Positions 1 to 10,235 of a DNA stretch of 10,235 nucleotides are shown here, piece after piece. Every line of letters starts with the position of its first letter. Within the stretch, counting starts at the first letter, position 1. The notes under the pieces were generated by a model. That model ran no database searches and had not been told where the DNA came from. It worked only from the letters and a program-made list of their open reading frames with translations. The position numbers and the translations under genes were made by a program. This DNA is from Asterionellopsis glacialis. Its lineage: Eukaryota > Bacillariophyta > Plagiogrammaphyceae > Rhaphoneidales > Asterionellopsidaceae. The stretch spans positions 1-10,235 of the forward strand of contig WKLE02001223.1 of NCBI GenBank assembly GCA_014885115.2, in the 5' to 3' direction.

Positions 1-1
1 T

Positions 2-432
2 TGTGCAGATGATGACAGCACTATACGTGCCCAGATGAAACATTCTATTCAAGACAAATTTGATGCTGAAAAAGACAACAACAAAAAGCAGAAGGTCGCA
101 AAAAAAATGACAAAATACAATCTGGCTTACAGGAAAGCAATCAAGATTTAAAAAATGGTGTCACTTATGCATCAGGAATTGGTTATGAAGCGCAAACCAA
201 AAATAATGCAAGACAGAGGCATATGACAATGCAAGCAGCAAAGGACAAGATATGTGTATTCTGTGGACTGAAAGGCCATAGCAGAAGATTGTCATGCAGT
301 TGTTTACAACACAAAGACAACCTGAATTTAAAAAAACAGGTGGCAAACCTTGCGTCAATTGAAGGACAAGAAGAAGGTAATAAAGGTACCGAGGATGCAC
401 ATGTGAAAAATTCTAAAAAAAATGACTATTGA
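2..432 (+). pseudogene. 3' remnant of an unassigned transposon-type gene with a zinc-knuckle-like motif
   Basis: The window opens inside a coding stretch. Frame 2 (2-148) reads CADDDSTIRAQMKHS and then a Lys-rich helix-like segment, ending at TAA 149-151. Frame 1 is open from 58 to 432 and overlaps it, so a frameshift between about 60 and 150 is likely. The frame-1 part carries KICVFCGLKGHSRR followed by further Cys and His (about 247-312), a C-x2-C-G-x2-G-H-like arrangement resembling nucleic-acid-binding zinc knuckles. A run such as DDDST-x-R followed by a C-terminal Cys/His knuckle reminds me of MULE-type transposase families in algal genomes, but I cannot name the family. The 5' part lies outside the window. 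It could also be a host gene fragment. The reading frames are real enough to support a decayed gene; the function is unknown. Confidence 0.45.
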
Positions 433-679
433 AAATGAACAAGTGCAGGAGAGCAATGACACCTATGTAACAAATGAAAACCGAACATTACTTAGGAGAG
501 AAGAAAAAGAGGAACTGCTGTTAGCAAGAGATGCAAGCCTGCCCTTGAACAGTATGTGCAAAAATGAAGAATTAGATTCCGTGGAGTGGCTTACAGACAG
601 GGTTTTGAAACTTGATATAATTGACTTTGATGAGGACTTGGAGATCAATTTTGATGACTCAGATGATGATCTGGTGTGA
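422..679 (+). pseudogene. Acidic C-terminal tail, probably of the preceding gene
   Basis: This 85-codon stretch overlaps the end of the zinc-knuckle fragment and lies in the next frame. The switch point is an 8-A run at about 414-421, so a one-base slip there would join the two into one reading frame. The product is strongly charged: a Glu/Lys/Arg-rich first half (RREEKEELLLARD) and a terminal acidic cluster (DFDEDLEINFDDSDDDLV) before TGA at 677-679. Acidic tails like this are common at the ends of transposase-like and nuclear proteins but are not diagnostic. I recognise no domain. The ATG at 422 is probably not a true start but part of the upstream gene. Alternatively it is a chance open frame, although the composition argues for former coding sequence. 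Confidence 0.4.
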
Positions 680-1426
680 ATATTACCAATCAGATCTGTT
701 AGATAGATACATAAACTAATATATTCTGGCCTAACATTGCAGATGAGGCCCTTCATAACATAACTTACAGCATATGAACATAAATTTTGTGATTTTAGCA
801 TTTTTAGTGTTTTTTTGGAAAAATTGAAAAAAACTAAGAACCGCATCTGAAACTTTGAGCCAGAATAAAATAGTTTATGTATCTATGTAAAAGGTTTGAT
901 ACTAGTTTCTGACCAAATTATGGGATTAAATGGATCATTCCCAGGGTGTTGGGGTCTAAAATGTGAAAAATTAAAAAAAATAAAATTTCTAGATGAAAGC
1001 ATGGAACATCTGTCCCCAGGGGGTTGAATTTTCATGTTTACGAAAAGGAGTGAATGTAAGCCAATCTACCACCTTCAAAGACAAATAAGACCCGTTCTTA
1101 TCCTTGTTTTTTTATTGTTTTTCTGGGCGCATATGGGCGGAAAAACATGGCAAGAATTGTAAATGAAGTGTTTTCTTCAATGTTTTTTGGGGTCTCTTAG
1201 CGGATATTTTACCGCCCAAATTGACTAATTAGTTACACATCAAGATTTACACACAAATTTTAAAAACATCAAATATACATTCAAGAATATGTTAATCTAA
1301 AAATAGAAACAATGACACAAAACTGTGTGTTATTCCAAGAGTCAACGGGTGGGTATTGTTGGAGATACAATCAAACCAAATCAGCCATTTTTTTCAAAAA
1401 ATTTCAAAGACTAATAGGTTACTAGT
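680..1426. other. AT-rich non-coding interval, possible transposon flanks
   Basis: No convincing coding frame is visible in either strand. The interval has several A and T runs and a short interrupted inverted repeat, TGGGCGG-AAAA (about 1134-1144) against TTTT-ACCGCCCA (about 1207-1218), which could form a stem around a 62-base loop. CCCAGGG-type G/C clusters near 938-956 and 1013-1024 look like transposon-end sequence, but I found no matching partner. It probably holds the 3' flank of the upstream remnant and the 3' non-coding end of the piggyBac relic that is read leftward into it. Confidence 0.4.
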
Positions 1427-2387
1427 TTAAAATTCCATTAACACTGTCAGTTTATGTGTTGTAAAGCATCCATTGCACAGATACTTTCCCTTGGTGCATT
1501 TGCAATACATGCAAGTTAATTTTCTGCATGGAGCTAACACCACTGTTTTTGGTATTTTTGTCTTGTCTTTGCAAATTTTTTTTCCTGGCATCCCATCAAA
1601 CCAGTTGTGTGATATATACTGGCCCAAACGAAATGGGACACCTTTGAACATATTCGGTTTGGTCGCGGACCACCAGTTGTGCCAGTTAGAGATGCCCTCC
1701 CAGCCAGCCATGAAAAACCAACAACCAACCCACCTGATGAACTCTGAAAAGTCCATAGGATCCTTCAAGACTTTATTGGTTTCAGGAATCAACACCTGCT
1801 CAAGATAATTGGTTGGAAACAAAATAAGAAATAATTGGAGTTTAGTCATCTTCGATACCTCTTCTTGTGAGAAATTTTTGAACGATGCAAAGAATTCATC
1901 AAATTACTGGATCTCCTTGGACAAATAATTCCTTCTCCCTTCCACACCAATCCATCAGCAGCCAGAGCTTGTTTGTTTGTTCCTCCTTGTGGTATATTCT
2001 TTGGTGACGTGATGGGTCATTGTCATTGTCAACAGTGATTCCCTGCCGGCAAAGGTTGTCCATATCAGTTGAACAAAGGGGCATGTTATGATGAACTTCT
2101 TGTGGGAGGTTCTCATCCCCCCTCCAGCAGCTTCCAACAGTCGCAATGCAACCACTTCATCTCCCACTTGTTGCTGGTACCAGCAGCATTTCATCTTGTT
2201 GTTTGACAATTGTGATGATAGATTCTGTTGGACCCTCTTCAATGACATGGATATATTTGGCTGCAGCGTAGAATTCTTGATTCTCGAAAACGGCATGCCG
2301 AAATGTATAAACCTTGCTTTCTTCTGCACCTCTATGTATGACTTTCATAGCCTCTCCAGTCAACAACAAGCACTCCATCAGATGGTG
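1427..2387 (-). pseudogene. PiggyBac-type transposase relic with catalytic core deleted
   Basis: Read leftward, the relic uses three frames. The first (about 2387-2015) carries LLLTGEAMKVIHRG, HAVFENQEFYAAAKY and VDNDNDP, with one in-frame TGA at 2157-2159. The second (about 2013-1910) carries SPKNIPQGG and KGEGIICPRRSSN. The third (about 1905-1427) reads through KMTKLQLFLILFP, then LIPETNKVL, FSEFIRWVGCWFFMAGWEGI and MFKGVPFRLGQYIS, the start of the DDE_Tnp_1_7 domain as I know it from algal piggyBac-like proteins. Near 1597 the homology jumps directly to a Cys-rich C-terminus (APCRK..C-x2-C-x-C..LC-x2-C-x3-H). PiggyBac transposases are usually several hundred residues with three catalytic Asp between these two parts; all of that is missing. 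The relic therefore cannot be active. Its upstream end abuts the LTR-like block of gypsy element 1. I found no TTAA-flanked terminal repeats. Confidence 0.75.
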
Positions 2388-2498
2388 AAGTAAACTCCCT
2401 GTAGGACACTCTTGAGGATGGATGATTGACGTGTGGGCAAGCAGACAGACTCACAAATAATTTACCATTTACTAATTTCCTGATTTCTTACTACTTAC

Positions 2499-2645
2499 TA
2501 GATTGCCGGATATTCTCCGGATTAAACTAAGCTCATAATTTTCATCACCAAATAATAGTCTTCTTTTCCTTTGTGTGTTGATTGTCTGATGGTTGTGTTG
2601 TGCCACCGTCGACACTAGCGGCATAGGGCATAGTAACGTTACTCC
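2499..2645 (+). repeat. LTR/leader-like block of gypsy element 1
   Basis: This block matches 5109-5235 in order: TAGATTG-x-CG followed by TATT, the exact 12-mer AGCTCATAATTT (2530-2541 against 5144-5155), a TTTTCC stretch, and GCATAGTAACGTTACTCC (2628-2645) against GCATAGTGTTAATACTCC (5218-5235). The spacing drifts through small indels, including about 24 extra bases here near 2600. It sits directly upstream of a gag region in both places, so it is probably the 3' part of the 5' LTR and/or the untranslated leader. LTR ends and primer-binding site are not resolved. The left part of the LTR is missing or is cut by the piggyBac relic. Confidence 0.6.
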
Positions 2646-2682
2646 CTCTTTCAGAGAATATTAACTTTCTTTTACTCCTCCA

Positions 2683-3406
2683 ATGACTTTCAAAAGAAAG
2701 CTCAGGAGTTGAGCCAACAGCAGACCCTGCTGAATCCTCTTGAAATCCCCTTCATTAAAACAAAGAAGGAGAGGTCAAAGTCAAAAGACGACGACAAATA
2801 TTCCTTCAAGACAATAGAAGTCAGAATCGATCCCTCTGAGGAAGGATCAGACTCTGAAACTATTGAAAAGAGAGTCAAACAATTTGAAGATGGAACTGCT
2901 GAAGAGTGGATCCAGTGGAGAATTGAATTTGCTGAGGTTGAGAGGGATTATCCCCTCACCAAAGCATCCTCCAAGACTTCCATGGCCCTCACCCTTTTGA
3001 AGGGTAGAGCAAGGCAGCTGTTTCAAGCAGCTAATGCCAATTGTCAGAGCAAAAATGCAAGCCTCAAGAAACCAGCCCAAAAAGATCCTGAACAGGTCTT
3101 TGAACTGCAAAACCACTTAAGTGGCAATCTGCCCTACTCGCTAGCAACCTTGATCCACACAATCTTTCGTGGGAGGATACCGTGGACTACTTTGAGAAGT
3201 TAGAGGTACACAATAATATCGAACGTGAACTTGCTAAGTCCAAAACACCTCTGGAAAGCAAGAAAAATCGCAAGCGTGAACGGACAGAAAAGAATTTGGA
3301 GCACAATAAAAGTGGTAACAATGACAAGCACCAGCGCACTCGTAAGTGGTGTAGCAACTGTCATATGAACAACGACAATACCAGCGAATGTACTGTGGAC
3401 AAGTAA
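2683..3406 (+). pseudogene. gag: Degenerate gag of gypsy element 1
   Basis: Gag would form the nucleocapsid particle that packages retrotransposon RNA. A likely start is ATG 2683, which aligns with ATG 5281 of element 2, but its frame stops at 2710, and coding potential continues in the frame open from about 2690 through 3203. The capsid signature KQFEDGTAEEWIQWRIEF is at 2877-2930, followed by ALTLLKGRARQLFQAA. Homology is then lost near 3110 and resumes in another frame at 3149 (LDPHNLSWEDTVDYFEKLE), which parallels FDPQDKSLPAFLEFLECME in element 2. The middle of capsid is thus deleted and shifted. A basic stretch precedes a nucleocapsid knuckle at 3350-3391, C-x2-C-x4-D-x4-C, in which Asp occupies the usual His position. 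TAA 3404-3406 interrupts it; the frame then continues. Confidence 0.7.
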
Positions 3407-3539
3407 AAAAAGAAGGATTTGGTTAAATCCAAGACATATAAGCAGGAGCAGGTAAATGCAATGATTAATTCGCTTAAGGTATTGAAAGATAAGCAGAAAA
3501 AGAAATGTAAAGTGCAGTACAAATTGAAAGCTTCCTCTA
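3407..3539 (+). pseudogene. Lys-rich gag-protease linker of element 1
   Basis: The gag frame continues past TAA 3404-3406 through a Lys-rich, helix-forming segment including QEQVNAMINSLKVLKDKQKK, up to TAG near 3548. Element 2 has a comparable piece after its own knuckle (KQELNAITVQVKELLTKELP, about 6226-6285), which supports real former coding rather than chance. Such Lys/Glu-rich stretches between nucleocapsid and protease are common in these elements. No catalytic function is expected. Confidence 0.45.
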
Positions 3540-4154
3540 ATGAAACCTAGTTCGTACTTTTCCCAACATAGTAAAATTAAACGTAAAACTAGTAGTGAAG
3601 ATTTAGACAATTACTTTATGCCTACTTCCTACACTGAATCAAACCTTTTCCCCAACGTAGAACAATCGTACAACATGCTGCGCAGTCAGCGAAAAGCGAA
3701 AAAGCAAAAATCTACACATTGCACTACTGAAGTAGTAGGCAAGCTCGTTCCAATACGAATCCTACTCATCACCAGTACTACCGCGACAATCATCCTTAAA
3801 GATTTTGAGGAATGGGGGAAGACCAGTTCTTACAAGAACCCTAAACCTACTCAGTCGAACACTATGGGAGGTAACTTTATCACTAAGCAAAAAGCTCAAA
3901 TAAATTTTACACTCCCGGAGTTCACTGACAAAAAGACAATAGTCTGGTCTTGTCACATGGACTAACGAACAAACCAAACATATTTGCAGTACAACATGAT
4001 CATTGGAACCAATCTGATGCAGGCCATTGGCCTGGACATACACCTTAGCATGAAAACAATACACTGGGAAGGGTATGAATTACCTATGAAATATGGCAGA
4101 GAGGTTTCAGACCCAGACCTATTAGCTCTGTTAGAGGTAGGTAGATGTCCATGA
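3540..4154 (+). pseudogene. pol: Retropepsin domain of element 1 with mutated active site
   Basis: The frame from 3540 holds a Ser/Asn-rich linker and then an aspartic-protease-like stretch: VVGKLVPIRILL, the active-site position, TTATIILKDF, and a later INFTLPEF segment. The triad should read Asp-Thr/Ser-Gly. Here codons 3768-3776 read ATC ACC AGT, Ile-Thr-Ser, so both the catalytic Asp and the Gly are gone, while the matching site in element 2 reads Asp-Ser-Gly. TAA 3963-3965 interrupts the frame, which then continues to TGA 4152-4154 through YNMIIGTNLMQAIGLDI and TIHWEGYELPMK, the conserved C-terminal part of the domain before RT. In this family the enzyme would cut the gag-pol polyprotein; this copy cannot. 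Confidence 0.75.
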
Positions 4155-4388
4155 ATCAATTTGTTAAGAGTTGGGCGGGGAAGAGACGTTCTTTAAGATG
4201 CATTCCAATGGCTTTCCCAGTCAATAATGTTGAATTGATTTTTTGACCAATTGTTTTGGGTAACCAAATATTCAATCATTGGTGTTACAGACATGTGAAA
4301 CCGGAGTTGGCTGGCGTGTTTAGACGTAATAGTACTTCCTCAAACAGAGAGTTGTGCTGTATTACCTGGGAGTTGTGGGACAGAAGTT
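4155..4388. other. Unrecognised filler at the RT-RNase H-integrase deletion junction
   Basis: Protease homology ends at about 4154 and integrase C-terminal homology begins at about 4389 (RDMIF). The DNA between has no coding frame I can match to RT, RNase H or integrase core and shares no obvious sequence with the rest of the window. It may be filler captured when the deletion was repaired, a decayed insertion, or a very degraded remainder of pol. No terminal inverted repeats are evident. Confidence 0.5.
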
Positions 4389-4697
4389 CGAGATATGATA
4401 TTTAGCATTCAGCATGAAGCAAACTGGGAACACATACATAGTAGGAAACAAGCTAGAATAGCTAGCAACAATCAGCACAAAAACGCTAAGAGAATTGAGC
4501 ATGATTATAAAGTAGGTGATAAAGCCCTACTAGAAAATGATAAGTCCAATCCACGTAAATATGCACAACCATGCGATGGACCATTTATAGTGCATCAAGT
4601 ACACTGCAATGGTACTGTAACTGTACAACACGGACCAGTACTCAACAGAATCAATATTCATTGCGTTAAGCCTTACCACATTGCTGCTGCCACATGA
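4389..4697 (+). pseudogene. Integrase C-terminal domain (GPY/F type) of element 1
   Basis: An open frame of about 100 residues has the typical order of a Ty3/gypsy integrase tail: RDMIFSIQHEANWEHIHSRKQ, a basic helix region, YKVGDKALL, the GPY/F-type core (CDGPFIVHQV, then NGTVTVQHG) and NIHCVKPY before TGA 4695-4697. The domain binds DNA non-specifically and helps target integration. It is unusually clean, with no internal stop, yet it is detached from its catalytic core. ATG 4395 is probably an internal Met, because homology starts upstream at 4389. The domain marks the 3' end of the element 1 coding region. Confidence 0.75.
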
Positions 4698-5108
4698 ATG
4701 TCCTAAGTACTCGATCCCTGGACATGGGGGCAAGTGCAGTAAGTGAGTCGCAAGACTTGCGTGATATGTCAATCAACCATAGTATGGACGTATCATGACG
4801 TGATGTTGTCATGGACAAGGACAGACATGATAACATGATGACATCATCAAGCAGAAAGACATGAACATGCGGTGATGCGCTGTGTACATACGAACGCTGA
4901 TGTCACAAGCAAAGCACATCAAAACCCACTCTGCAGCAGGAGCATGATGCATCACACCGGAACACGATGATGTGCAGGTCCGGTGGACTCTCATTGCCTG
5001 CCTAGGGGAGTTTGGTTCACATGGTAAAACCAAACTCCATTGGAACCAAACTCTAAGTAGATCTGTCATGGGATCCTGTGATGTAATTGGGTTGAGAAGA
5101 CAAATCAG
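4698..5108. other. 3' end of element 1 / LTR-like DNA between the two gypsy copies
   Basis: No supported gene lies here. A G-rich run in GGACATGGGGGCAAG (about 4720-4734) is a weak polypurine-tract candidate. From about 4790 to 4870 the sequence is rich in CATGA, GTCATG and TGATGACATCATCA motifs and contains TGACGTGA, which resembles a CRE-type site. Features like these are seen in retrotransposon U3 regions, so the interval may be the 3' LTR of element 1, possibly shared as the 5' LTR of element 2. Exact LTR ends cannot be set. Confidence 0.4.
5007..5053 (+). repeat. Perfect 11-bp hairpin plus a third repeat copy
   Basis: GGAGTTTGGTT (5007-5017) is the exact reverse complement of AACCAAACTCC (5028-5038), giving a perfect 11-bp stem with a 10-base loop. 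AACCAAACTC recurs at 5044-5053. It could be a fold in the LTR RNA, or protein-binding repeats in a U3 region. No T-tract or other evidence makes it a terminator. Confidence 0.6.
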
Positions 5109-5235
5109 TAGATTGTCGACTATTTTTAGCAACTAGTTAAAATAGCTCATAATTTATTCACTCTAACAAAACTCAGTCTATTTTCCTATCACTTTTCAAT
5201 ATTGTTGTCAGTATAGTGCATAGTGTTAATACTCC
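5109..5235 (+). repeat. LTR/leader-like block of gypsy element 2
   Basis: This is the counterpart of 2499-2645. Shared anchors are TAGATTG, AGCTCATAATTT (5144-5155) and GCATAGTG..ACTCC (5218-5235). It lies 46 bp upstream of the candidate gag ATG at 5281; in element 1 the gap is 37 bp. AACAAAACTC after the AGCTCATAATTT core may include an R/U5-like segment. Because it sits between two head-to-tail elements it may also be the 3' LTR of element 1. Confidence 0.6.
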
Positions 5236-5280
5236 ACGCAAAAAGTGGTAAGTAACTATCCAATATTATTCCAATTCCAA

Positions 5281-6405
5281 ATGACTCAACCATGAAAGTT
5301 GTTACACCTAACCAAGGCAATGGTCGAAGCTACCCGCCACCTTCTATCCCACTCAAAATTCCAATTACAGAAGAGTAGAAACTAGCTAAAGTGCAGTATG
5401 CCAAAGTTAGCCTGCTATCTAATCCCGGAGATCAAAACTCCAAAGAGAAGCATACTATGGAGTTTCCTTACTTTAGTCACAGATCTCCTAGGGAACTACT
5501 GGATTTGTTCAACAATCTGGACCAATTGATTTGCGGCCAGTGTATCATGACCAGGCCTGCTCACTACCTGTGATTTACTATGCAGAGAAGGTCTGCATGT
5601 ATTCAATGCCGCAGCTACCCAGTGCAGAAATGATACTGTGGAGCACTTCAAGTTGGTTGGTGATGACCTCAAGAAGCATTTTTCCCCACTTAAGTTTCTC
5701 ATGAAGCTACATGCACTGGTTCCTTAGGAAGCCATACAAACTAATATCCAAAGAGTACTAAGCTGCTCTCCACACTCTCAATAGCACTTAGAGAAATTCC
5801 CTGGAGCAGACAAAAACTCTAAGCTTTCCAATGAAGAACTACTCCAGATCCTTGAATTCAGAATTCCTACTACTTGGAGCAAGGAAATGACACGCCAAGG
5901 ATTTGACCCTCAGGACAAAAGCCTGCCAGCGTTTCTGGAATTTCTGGAATGTATGGAAGTTATGGATGACATAGGGGATCTGTCAGGCCCTAGGACTAAG
6001 GACAAGCTGGCTCACAAGGATAAACTTAACAATCCAACTAACGGCTGGGATGGTAAAGACCATAAGGCACCCAAAGGCAAATACAAGTACTGCAAGATTC
6101 ACAAGAAAATCTCACACGATACCAGTGAATGCTGTGCCTTTGACAAATATATTGACCACCATCAGAAAGATGGGGAAAAGCAAGAACATCCCAAGTAAAA
6201 GCACATGCACTACAACAAGTACGACAAGCAGGAATTGAATGCCATCACGGTTCAAGTCAAAGAATTATTGACTAAGGAGTTGCCTAGTAAGAACAAGCAC
6301 AAACGTGATGATACCAACCAGAAAACCAATGATACCGATACTGATGTAGAAGAATGCTACAACTTCAACTTTGATACCTTAAGTATCAACAGTGATGAAG
6401 AATGA
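5281..6405 (+). pseudogene. gag: Degenerate gag of gypsy element 2
   Basis: ATG 5281 (MTQP) aligns with the element 1 start but meets a stop within a few codons. Capsid homology runs in frame 3 from 5391 (KVSLLSNPGDQ, FSHRSPRELLDLFNNLDQL) to TGA 5571-5573, then in frame 1 from 5572 onward (DTVEHFKLVGDDLKKHFSP, LLQILEFRIPTTWSKEM, QGFDPQDKSLPAFLEFLE). The nucleocapsid knuckle at 6091-6132 is intact: C-x2-H-x4-H-x4-C within YCKIHKKISHDTSEC. A Lys/Asp-rich tail ends SINSDEE. Frame-1 stops are TAG 5725, TAG 5782, TAA 6196 and TGA 6403. No frameshift is needed from 5572 to the MITE at 6733, so this half decayed only by point mutation. Confidence 0.75.
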
Positions 6406-6726
6406 GATAATACCCCCATAGCAAGTAATGTAGAAGACCAATTATTTAATTACACTATGCCTAATCATCTGTCTTGCAATACTTTCAGAGACTTGCATAG
6501 TCCAATAAAAAGGCCTAAGACTAAGCATACTTGCCCAGTCACAGTCACGTTGATGCTAGTACGCAAGGGACAAAGGCAGAAAACCAAACCACTTTAAGTA
6601 CTTTTAGATTCAGGTGCTTCAGCCACTATAGTAAATAAGAAGTTTACTGAAAAGCTTAAGTGCAAGCCTGCACCCAAGACGCTTTGGAGAACCAAGGGCA
6701 GAAATTTCTCAACCAAATTTGATGAG

Positions 6727-6732
6727 CAAAAG
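6727..6732. repeat. Left target-site duplication of the 619-bp element (CAAAAG)
   Basis: CAAAAG directly precedes the left TIR and is identical to the six bases that directly follow the right TIR. It falls on codon boundaries of the interrupted protease frame (CAA AAG). Confidence 0.8.
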
Positions 6733-7351
6733 AGTTGTTCCAGGATTAGGTGGACCAACTTGTGACATCTGGTCCGTAGACTCCACGTAGACCCAAATTC
6801 ATATTTTTGAATTATACACATATTCATTGATTTATACTTTTATATACTTTGAAATTTTCAATATATATATTCATACTTTAATAATTTTATACTACTGAAA
6901 AATATACAATATATGTATACATATATTAATACATTATATTCTGGCATGGCCGACTTGTATCGAAATTGAATGCAATGACGGCCTTGCCAGTGCACTTTGG
7001 GGCATTGCAGGCTCCCTCAACGGACAAAAATTGGCTGTTGCACCCAGATCTCTTCCGATCAATCTTGCAAAATGGTGCTGTTTGCGGTACCGATTTCTCG
7101 ACAACCAGCCATTTTTACCTAAAAACCACCAGTGGCGTTCCATGCAGAAGCTCCTTGTGCATGGAACCCCACTAGTGGTTGTTAGTTGAAAATGGCTGGT
7201 TGTCAAGAAATCGGTACCGTAAAATGGTATGTCCGTCCTTCCTCACAAAAAAAATAACACGTAAAATTACTAGCTTTGACTAATTTGATTCAAAAAAAAA
7301 TTTTATGTCACAGCCCAGTACTGGACTGGTCCACCTAATCCTGGAACAACT
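6733..7351. mobile_element. 619-bp non-autonomous DNA transposon (MITE-like) inserted in protease
   Basis: The ends are perfect 25-bp inverted repeats: AGTTGTTCCAGGATTAGG and seven more bases at 6733-6757, and the reverse complement at 7327-7351. The element is flanked by identical CAAAAG at 6727-6732 and 7352-7357, a 6-bp target duplication. Past the TIR both ends share TGTGACAT at different spacing (6761-6768 on the left, reverse complement on the right near 7305-7312). The interior is AT-rich (about 6785-6945) and then holds a large foldback (7085-7219); it has no transposase. Six-bp duplications do not match the commonest classes (hAT 8, PIF/Harbinger 3, Tc1 TA, piggyBac TTAA), so the superfamily is open. 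A reading with 26-bp TIRs and a 4-bp AAAA duplication is possible but less natural. Confidence 0.85.
7085..7219. repeat. 135-bp foldback inside the MITE, possibly a nested insertion
   Basis: The arms 7085-7150 and 7154-7219 are inverted copies of 66 bp with about 7 mismatches by eye and a 3-base spacer (CTC). Each arm ends in the palindrome CGGTACCG. An identical 8-mer, AAAATGGT, lies at 7069-7076 and 7221-7228 and would bracket a 144-bp unit (7077-7220), like the 8-bp duplication of hAT-type elements. The left side carries eight extra bases before the arm, so the ends are not symmetric. As RNA it would fold into a nearly perfect long hairpin. Confidence 0.75.
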
Positions 7352-7357
7352 CAAAAG
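7352..7357. repeat. Right target-site duplication of the 619-bp element (CAAAAG)
   Basis: This is the second copy of CAAAAG, directly after the right TIR. Protease homology resumes with the next base, 7358. Confidence 0.8.
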
Positions 7358-7615
7358 GCCATTGAATGGGAATGTCATGTGGACAAGACAGAAGGTCAAC
7401 AATCATACAATATGATAATCAGATGCAAGCTCCTAAAAGAGCTAGGTATGATACTTGACTATAAACAGTGCGTAATAACTTGGGAGGATGCAGAAGTCCC
7501 AATGATGTCAACTGATTATGAGATCAAGGAATTGTACAGTATGCTACAGGAACTCACCAAGCCTAGACAAGTATGCAAAGTCACCAGTTGTATGGACAAG
7601 ATACTGGCCACCTAA

Positions 7616-8500
7616 TACGATAAGGCTGACCTAGACAAAGTAACAAGATTGTGCTGGCATCTGCCTCCTAAGGACAGAACAGCTTTCAATGTACTACTTA
7701 AGAAATACAAACCTCTGTTTGATGGTACTCTGGGCATGTGGAACACCAACCCAGTGAGTATAGAAATAAAAAAAGGCTCTAAGCCCTATCATGGGAAAGC
7801 CTATCCTGTACCCCAGATATATGACTGACTACTTAGAGAAGAGGTAGACAGGCTCATTCGCATAGGAGTATTACAAAAAGTTAACAGGTCAGAATGGGCA
7901 GCACCTAGCTTCCCACGACCTAAGAAAAACAACACTATCTGGTTTATTTCTGACTTTAGGAATCTGAACAAATGTATCATATGACATCTGTTCTCTATTC
8001 CCCAAATTCAGGAATTACTTACAAAACTTGAAGGTTTCTCATATGCATCATTTCTAGACTTAAATATGGGATACTATCTCATACAGCTAGATGCAGATGC
8101 TAGCAAACTATGTACAATTGTACTACCATGGGGCAAGTATAAATACCTATGCCTACCCATGGGAGTTACAAATTCAGCGGACATTTTCCAAGAGAAGATG
8201 AGCAAACTTATGATGTGCAGATAGAATTTGTACGCATTTACATTGATGATCTATTGCTCCTTACAATGGACAAATTTGAACATCACATACACAAAATGTA
8301 CCTGGTACTACAAAGACTACAGGAAGTAGGACTTAAAGTCAATGCAGAGAAATCCTTCTTCAGACAAACCAAAATGGACTATCTTGGATTCCACGTATGT
8401 TGCAAGGGCATAAGGCCATTCAACCATAAGGTCTCTGTCATACTAAACATAGCACCCCCTACAACTACCAAAAAGACATGATCCTTTGTAGGAATGTCAA
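7616..8500 (+). pseudogene. pol: Reverse transcriptase domain of gypsy element 2
   Basis: RT copies the element RNA into cDNA. Frame 2 gives PVSIEIKKGSKPYHGKAYPV, REEVDRLIRIGVLQKV, FISDFRNLNKCI, then FLDLNMGYYLIQLD with the first catalytic Asp at 8057-8059, and LCLPMGVTNSADIFQEKM. TGA codons interrupt at 7826 and 7982. A frameshift near 8209-8218 moves to frame 1, where IEFVRIYIDDLLLL carries the catalytic YIDD at 8239-8250, followed by GLKVNAEKSFF and YLGFHV. TGA 8479-8481 and another shift near 8497 lead into frame 3 (NYYKQMWIHRSHVLAPL). All three catalytic Asp survive, and the motif order is that of Ty3/gypsy RT. The product is broken by three stops and two shifts. Confidence 0.88.
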
Positions 8501-8993
8501 TTACTATAAACAAATGTGGATACATAGATCCCATGTACTGGCTCCCCTATTTAAACTACAAGGCCAAGGGGTTAAGTTTAAATGGGACAAGGAACAACAG
8601 ATAGCCTTTGATAATATAAAGAAAACTATAGCCAAAGAAGTACTATTGTCCTACCTGGACTTCAACAACACTTTCCACATATACACTGATGTCAGTAAGT
8701 ATCAACTAGGGGCCATTATCACGCAAGACAACAAACCCATTGTATTCTACAGTAGGAAACTTACTGACACCAAAACTAAATAGGACACTTGCAATCAAGA
8801 ACTATTGTTGATCGTGGAAGTACTTAGGGGGTACTGGTACATACTACTTGGTCACCATGTCATCATACATACAGACCATAAAAATCTAACCTACAACAAA
8901 TGTCAGACCAAATGCCACGCACACTGGTGATGGTTTGTAGAAGCATTTGCACCTGAAATACACTATATAAAAGGCAAACATAACAGATCCTGA
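8500..8993 (+). pseudogene. RNase H domain of gypsy element 2
   Basis: RNase H degrades the RNA strand of the RNA-DNA hybrid. Frame 3 reads VKFKWDKEQQIAFDNIKK, VLLSYLDFNNTFHIYTDVSK (first catalytic Asp, codon 8688-8690), YQLGAIITQDNKPIVFYSRK, then after TAG 8781-8783 NQELLLIVEVLRGYWYILLG (Glu) and IIHTDHKNLTY (Asp). TGA 8928-8930 precedes WFVEAFAPEIHYIKGKHN. The usual ADALSR-type end of the domain is missing and the frame breaks at TGA 8991. The catalytic D-E-D set is otherwise present. It lies directly after the RT connection region, as in Ty3/gypsy. Confidence 0.85.
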
Positions 8994-9823
8994 CATACAA
9001 GCTGTTCTGGAATGCTATATCACTGATGAAGATATGGCGGAAATGTACTGCCTTAATATGCCTCAGCATAGCAATAGTGGTGAGGGATTTCCCCTAAGTT
9101 ACCCAGGTATTCTTAAACATCAACTAAAGGACAATCAACTCAGATGAGACGCACTTAAGAAGAAAGGTTTCTCCGAATGCCTATTTCTTACAGCCTTATA
9201 TGCTACAAAGACAAAATATGCGTTCTGTCAACCCTACAGAAACTAATGGTACAATGGTACCACATGTACTCATGTCATCCCCGGTAAGACCTGCACCAAA
9301 GAGACAATACAACAGCACTTATGGTGGCCCAAACTACATGAACACGTAACAACCTACTGCAAAACTTGCCACACCTGTCAACTGAACAAGACTCAAAGTA
9401 AAAAGTATGGACACCTGCCTGAAAAAGACACAGAAGCCACTCCATGAAACCACCAATGTGTAGAACTCATAGGACCCTATCCTATCAAAAGAAAAAGTCA
9501 TAAGGATCTTACCCTTTGCTACGTTACTATGATTGACCTTGCTACAGGATGATTCAATATTGCCCTTTGGTCCATAAGGAGCAGTATTGAAATTGCAAAC
9601 ATAGTAGAACAACAGTGGTTTGCACGATACCCAAAGCCTACACAAGTTCTGTAGTATGTTAGACAATGAATATCATGTCAAAGGTAAACCAATCACTACC
9701 CATAACCCACAGGCAAATGTCATCATGGAGAGGATACATCAAGTAGTGGGAAACATGGTACGAACCCACAAGGTACAACGTAGTACTGAAGAAAACCCTT
9801 GGGCTGGTGTATCATCACATACA
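8983..9823 (+). pseudogene. Integrase zinc finger and damaged catalytic core of element 2
   Basis: Integrase would join cDNA to host DNA. After an RNase H-integrase linker (MAEMYCLNMPQ, FPLSYPGILKHQLKDNQL), the zinc finger is recognisable. The two His are in frame 3 (WYHMYSCHP, codons 9261 and 9276) and the Cys pair in frame 1 (YCKTCHTCQLNK), so a one-base shift near 9282 splits it. The core starts with CVELIGPYPIKRKSHK and MIDLATG (first Asp, 9535-9537). After RYPKPTQV it jumps to FCSMLDNEYHVKGKP in frame 2; the segment with the second catalytic Asp is absent. The Glu is in NVIMERIHQ (9728-9730). Stops are TGA 9145, TAA 9244, TGA 9445, TGA 9550 and TAG 9652. Two TGA stand where Trp is usual in related integrases. 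Confidence 0.82.
9559..9823 (+). repeat. First copy of a 265-bp-period duplication in integrase
   Basis: This copy runs from ATTGC at 9559 to the junction at 9823. Its first 198 bases match 9824-10021 at a constant offset of 265. It spans the integrase stretch from just after the first Asp past the Glu, plus about 67 bases of downstream coding DNA not repeated later. Confidence 0.8.
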
Positions 9824-10021
9824 ATTGCTTTTTGGTCCAAAAGGAGCAGTATCAAAATCGCAAACATAGTAGAACAACAGTGGTTTGCATGATACCCAAA
9901 GCCTACACAAGTTCCATAGTATGTTAGATGATGAATACCACATCAAGCGCAAACCAATCACTACCCATAACCCACAGGCAAATGCCATCATGGAGAGGAT
10001 ACATCAAGTAGTAGATAACAT
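9824..10021 (+). repeat. Second, partial copy of the integrase duplication
   Basis: This copy repeats 9559-9756 with about 21 differences in 198 by eye, roughly 18 of them transitions. It shows the same loss of the second-Asp segment and the same stop (TAG 9917-9919) and frame change as the first copy. ATTGC marks both left ends. Because 265 is not a multiple of 3, the duplication shifts the frame. Similarity ends at 10021, where the AT-rich array begins. Confidence 0.8.
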
Positions 10022-10042
10022 CGTCACATAAAGTGAACTTTC

Positions 10043-10235
10043 TAACCTAGGTTACAAATGTACAAATCCCAAGTTACAAATAAATTTAACTTAGGTTACA
10101 AATTATTAGTGGATTTCTGGTTACAATTTTGTATTTTAAAATTGCAATTTTGCTAATTTATTTTTTTACAAATTTGTAATCACAGGTTACAAATTTGTAA
10201 CTTCATAATATTTTTCATGTTACAAAATTGTAATT
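10043..10235. repeat. AT-rich array of GTTACAAAT-like motifs at about 22-bp spacing
   Basis: GTTACAAAT occurs at 10051, 10073, 10095 and 10186, with close variants at 10120 (GTTACAATT), 10165 (TTTACAAAT) and 10219 (GTTACAAAA). Steps are 22, 22, 25, 45 (about twice 22), 21 and 33. TTACAAATTTGTAA, a 14-bp palindrome, occurs at 10166-10179 and 10187-10200, so the motif lies on both strands. The array opens with the 12-bp palindrome TAACCTAGGTTA (10043-10054). No gene is present. It may be the subterminal end of another transposon that cut into the integrase, or the edge of a minisatellite; the window ends inside it. Confidence 0.65.

Follow-up and report, generated by a model that had tools for sequence, protein, structure and literature searches.

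Background

Sola DNA transposons, as described in PMC10741241, encode a DDD transposase, generate target-site duplications (TSDs) of 4 bp and have very variable terminal sequences. A 4-bp TSD is also given for Sola2 in PMC3627910, which describes an amoebozoan set with the target AWWT, and PMC12477816 names Sola-1 and Sola-2 among the elements of the brown alga Ectocarpus. The present analysis concerns a 10,235-nt stretch of the genome of the diatom Asterionellopsis glacialis (contig WKLE02001223.1, positions 1 to 10,235; hereafter the window), in which a miniature inverted-repeat transposable element (MITE) interrupts the protease region of a decayed retrotransposon of the gypsy type. Like ordinary MITEs, the element is short and non-coding, carries terminal inverted repeats (TIRs), has a TSD of fixed length and occurs in many similar copies. 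At 621 bp it is longer than most, which remain below 500 bp in the portion of PMC10741241 that treats them, and unlike ordinary MITEs it holds an internal palindrome with 70-nt arms. With a probability of roughly 85%, it is an internal-deletion derivative of a cut-and-paste transposon with a DDD transposase, mobilised in trans with a 4-bp stagger. The MITE itself is a fairly ordinary object and is more interesting through the transposase family to which it leads, one with relatives in several algae that is nameless in the libraries searched.

Methods

The genome searched was assembly G000 (40.3 Mb, 1503 contigs), and the repeat counts obtained from genome searches are lower bounds. The TSD was tallied in the same genome over 47 distinct innermost TIR pairs with both flanks; the count left out duplicates, the outer pairs where elements are nested, pairs whose flanks fall short of 16 bp, and copies in which a TIR has more than 6 mismatches.

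A multicopy family with 26-bp TIRs and a 4-bp TSD

The element search returned 146 candidates at first look, of which 40 were scored, corresponding to 40 places on 40 contigs. All but one of these (39/40) span at least 590 of the 619 bases originally assigned to the element, with identities of 78-94%, the window itself excepted. With as many as 3 mismatches allowed, the 24-base TIR core has at least 204 occurrences and the reversed pattern none. Alignment of 46 copies of 500-631 bp gave a mean pairwise identity of 86.0% (range 76.7-98.2%). The genome copy count proposed as a check in the original prediction thus describes a short, non-coding, TIR-bounded and multicopy family, as expected of a MITE.

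In the window the two TIRs pair perfectly with each other (Table 1), and an inverted repeat of any kind of at least 16 bp arose in 3 of 500 shuffles of positions 6401-7700. The termini read GAG...CTC, and the TIR pattern in the diatom genome is written GAG(T/A)TGTTCCAG. The base preceding AGTTG is G in 42 of the 47 pairs and the base following CAACT is C in 44, and because of this conservation the terminal G and C were assigned to the element. The perfect identity of the TIRs had been recognised before; their length has to be raised from 25 to 26 bp and that of the element from 619 to 621 bp, each boundary having been placed one base off.

Table 1. Coordinates of the MITE, its parts and its surroundings in the window.
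Feature	Position	Strand	Remarks
MITE, non-autonomous DNA transposon	6732..7352	+	621 bp
Left TIR	6732..6757	+	26 bp, GAGTTGTTCC
Right TIR	7327..7352	-	26 bp, perfect, GGAACAACTC
Left TSD AAAA	6728..6731	.	
Right TSD AAAA	7353..7356	.	
Left subterminal region common to transposase-bearing copies, adjoining the 3' end of their gene	6733..6970	+	L048-L052, 75-80% identity
Right terminal region, similar to the end that lies 5' of the gene in a sister-family element on contig C58	7306..7352	-	47 bp, 76.6%
Internal palindrome	7081..7223	.	70-nt arms, 89% complementary
Retropepsin-type part of the host retrotransposon, upstream of the MITE	6400..6731	+	two in-frame stops
Same reading frame resumed downstream of the insertion	7357..7700	+	one in-frame stop

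The TSD had been read as 6 bp, and both flanks of the window copy do read CAAAAG. Across the family, a 4-bp TSD next to the 26-bp TIR is exact in 32 of the 47 pairs and holds with at most one mismatch in 42, the remaining five showing two or more mismatches, so that the fixed duplication length is 4 bp. Agreement over 6 bp is found in 6/47 pairs, the window copy among them. The base outside the left TSD is C in 14 pairs and that outside the right TSD is G in 15, hence about 4-5 agreements over 6 bp are expected by chance. In the window, AAAA is read as CAAAAG because a chance C and a chance G outside the TSD combine with TIRs that start with G and end with C. A 25-bp TIR with a 6-bp duplication, and with it a superfamily with 6-bp TSDs, was accordingly rejected and is almost certainly wrong. 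The corrected TSD length avoids assigning the element to the wrong superfamily; the earlier view that the duplication fits no common superfamily loses its premise, a different duplication length in other copies being among the outcomes named in advance as refuting it.

A weak palindromic pattern surrounds the 32 exact sites, with C or T at position -1 in 27, G or A at position +1 in 19, and A or T at duplicated bases 1 and 4 in 25 and 28, respectively; the two middle bases are A or T in 18 and 16. The target preference would thus be weak, of the form pyrimidine - W N N W - purine. TTAA, the target of piggyBac, Kolobok and Sola3, is absent from these 32 sites.

Both arms of the internal palindrome are retained in 39 of the 46 aligned copies, and the likeness of the arms within a copy is only slightly above that between copies. 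TIRs or MITE copies are clustered at four places (L031 on C304, L081 on C904, L060 on C789 and L022 on C147), probably through nested or adjacent insertions.

Host retrotransposon and age of the insertion

The motif VLLDSGASATIV, in frame upstream of the insertion, is one that we take to be of retropepsin type; the Pfam family RVP matches only marginally (E 0.09), and does so in a related sequence on a different contig. Translated separately, the upstream flank ends in ...KFDEQ and the downstream flank begins with KAIEWECHVDK.... The insertion adds 625 bp, a multiple of three plus one, and entry of the window copy into the gypsy protease region would thereby have broken the frame. That removal of 625 bp restores the frame, as originally observed, agrees with the flank translations, but it does not separate the two sets of boundaries, because 621 + 4 and 619 + 6 both equal 625 and the frame is blind to TSD length. 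The flanks, about 225 codons together, hold 3 in-frame stops, for which the description of the retrotransposon as riddled with stops is strong wording in this part.

Among the 46 aligned copies the closest to the window copy is L002 on contig C1373 (98.2%), followed by one at 94.7%. The spread of identities suggests a long period of movement in which the window copy moved late, in keeping with the rather recent insertion into the protease region proposed at the outset. The reasoning from perfect TIRs to a young element does not carry this far: the left and right TIRs are identical to each other in 17 of the 46 copies, and a perfect TIR alone therefore gives no insertion date. Decay of the host frame may have preceded the insertion, as had been supposed.

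Linkage to a transposase gene

Coding DNA lies inward of several TIRs. The transposase gene was first met on contig C21, and the top five matches are on C21, C791, C242, C427 and C723. In all five of these close copies the 3' part of the gene that was matched is followed, after 351-481 bp, by a TIR with 0-2 mismatches in 26 bases, a placement that occurred in none of 200 shuffles for each copy. The left 207-238 bp of the MITE are common to the five (alignments of 210-243 columns; identities in Table 1). A diverged gene on C222 is accompanied, 770 bp away, by the related TIR GAGATGTTCCAGCCGCAGGTGGCCCA, of which the genome holds 8 occurrences when as many as 3 mismatches are allowed, against 0 for the control. 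On C58 a TIR of this type stands on the 5' side of an N-terminal gene part, and the adjoining DNA resembles the right end of the MITE (E 2e-5 over the region given in Table 1, 26 bp of which are the TIR). The MITE therefore has ends common to a transposase-bearing element, the right end only by likeness to a sister family. The larger element with the same TIRs that was to be sought has accordingly been met in part, as a transposase gene linked to the left end, but not as a gene between both ends.

A MITE that arose as a separate lineage and captured these TIRs, or converged on them, would explain why its middle part and palindrome match nothing in the fetched coding copies L048-L051. Homology that reaches 207-238 bp inward on the left, far past the TIR, and about 20 bp past it on the right in the sister family makes such an origin unlikely. 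Under the preferred reading, the source transposon would encode a DDD transposase of about 1,100 aa, and its internal deletion would have given rise to the MITE family. Transposase supplied in trans would recognise the common 26-bp TIRs, cut the element out and integrate it at a new site, with the two strand joints staggered by 4 bp, leaving the 4-bp TSD.

Several observations weigh against this reading. Among the copies examined, none was recovered in which the gene is whole and a TIR stands on either side of it. C791 carries the most complete gene copy, with frameshifts, stops and loss of the third predicted catalytic acid; its homology with the copy on C17 stops at about 10077, and a right TIR was not found there or in C222, so that the two ends are known from different elements. 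The more diverged genes on C690 and C1225 showed no linked TIR and perhaps belong to further families with other ends. Of the protein folds compared with the transposase models, short Argonautes rank after integrases with Z scores within 1 (7.6; 8.2), and no Foldseek match at E <= 0.001 was found; the fold therefore shows an RNase H-like nuclease core and not a function.

The genes on C690 (L061) and C1225 (L054) are diverged transposase relatives, 42% identical to P0001. At C296 42430-43940 (L118, L119), two TIRs of the C222 type, and so of the sister TIR family, face each other 1.5 kb apart with the flanks AAAT and TAAT; they likely bound a second non-autonomous element.

Mobilisation by a DDE_3 (Tc1/IS630-like) transposase was considered in view of a DDE_3-like frame on C202 (L029; E 4e-4 in Pfam, short of the curated threshold), which ends about 194 bp from a TIR, and of an internal MITE-like piece in L046 on C902, where a TIR lies at 11817-11840, outside the fetched stretch. 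A TIR stands beside DDE_3 at one of eight loci, that on C202; at the other seven there is none within about 1.5 kb on either side. Tc1-type elements, moreover, duplicate TA in the account given in part of PMC10741241, and this source of mobility is very improbable. On C202, at about 7662-8282 (L029/L040), the DDE_3-type remnant meets a MITE copy, of which the outermost 194 bp are present there. The DDE_3-type gene of C202 has matches on eleven other contigs, and the same contig encodes a SYP7-type syntaxin, 100% identical to a protein in the mmetsp and jgi sources. Among 120 of the 292 relatives of this syntaxin, the species names that can be read are those of diatoms such as Nitzschia, Pseudo-nitzschia, Helicotheca and Thalassiosira, and the genome was taken on this ground to be that of a diatom.

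The transposase and described superfamilies

The transposase has 123 relatives, two diatoms among them. The residues D657, D754 and D795 are conserved. Two structure models give an integrase-like core with a predicted DDD triad; on our reading of the model, these three residues would sit as in an RNase H core. A Pfam match better than E 0.02 was not found, nor was a description of the family in the open-licence literature, Repbase lying outside that search. The suggestion of an undescribed family may thus hold, on account of a linked transposase without a Pfam match at that level rather than of the TSD length. The linkage also connects large algal and metagenome-type proteins that lack Pfam annotation with transposition, and provides them with TIRs, a target footprint and a predicted catalytic triad.

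Four groups of transposons were ruled out by their termini or target. Ginger is similar in its integrase-like fold, and its TSDs of 4-6 bp in the part of PMC10741241 concerned include the length found here, whereas its ends are given there as TG...CA and those of the MITE are GAG...CTC. IS481EU ends in TGT...ACA in the Histomonas families (PMC10045372), again in contrast to GAG...CTC. Tc1/mariner elements duplicate the 2-bp TA, compared with a varied 4 bp here, and the TTAA-specific families are ruled out by the 32 exact sites.

Placement of the linked transposase in Sola, which would make the element a Sola MITE, concerns the label and not the mechanism, and its chances are slightly below even. 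The 4-bp TSD is shared with Sola as described in PMC10741241 and PMC3627910, and the predicted DDD triad would fit the DDD transposase given there, a likeness that lies in the descriptions; PMC12477816 places Sola-1 and Sola-2 in another alga. The amoebozoan AWWT target in PMC3627910 differs from the present pattern, in which the middle bases are A or T at about half of the exact sites.

A more far-reaching proposal is put forward tentatively: the transposase might stand for a superfamily of its own, or for a new and deep branch within Sola, with members in diatoms, a haptophyte and numerous metagenome-type sources. It would combine the DDD integrase-like core with a C-terminal BAH-like domain resembling chromatin readers, and one large MITE family or more would have arisen from it in this diatom. 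If so, the BAH-like domain could direct insertion to particular chromatin.

Other repeats in the window

Two further repeats were recorded in the window. A direct repeat of 201 nt at 9559-9759 and 9824-10024 is 89% identical, with a start-to-start distance of 265, and an inverted repeat at 689-753 and 836-900 has 65-nt arms that are 78% complementary and separated by a spacer of 82 nt.
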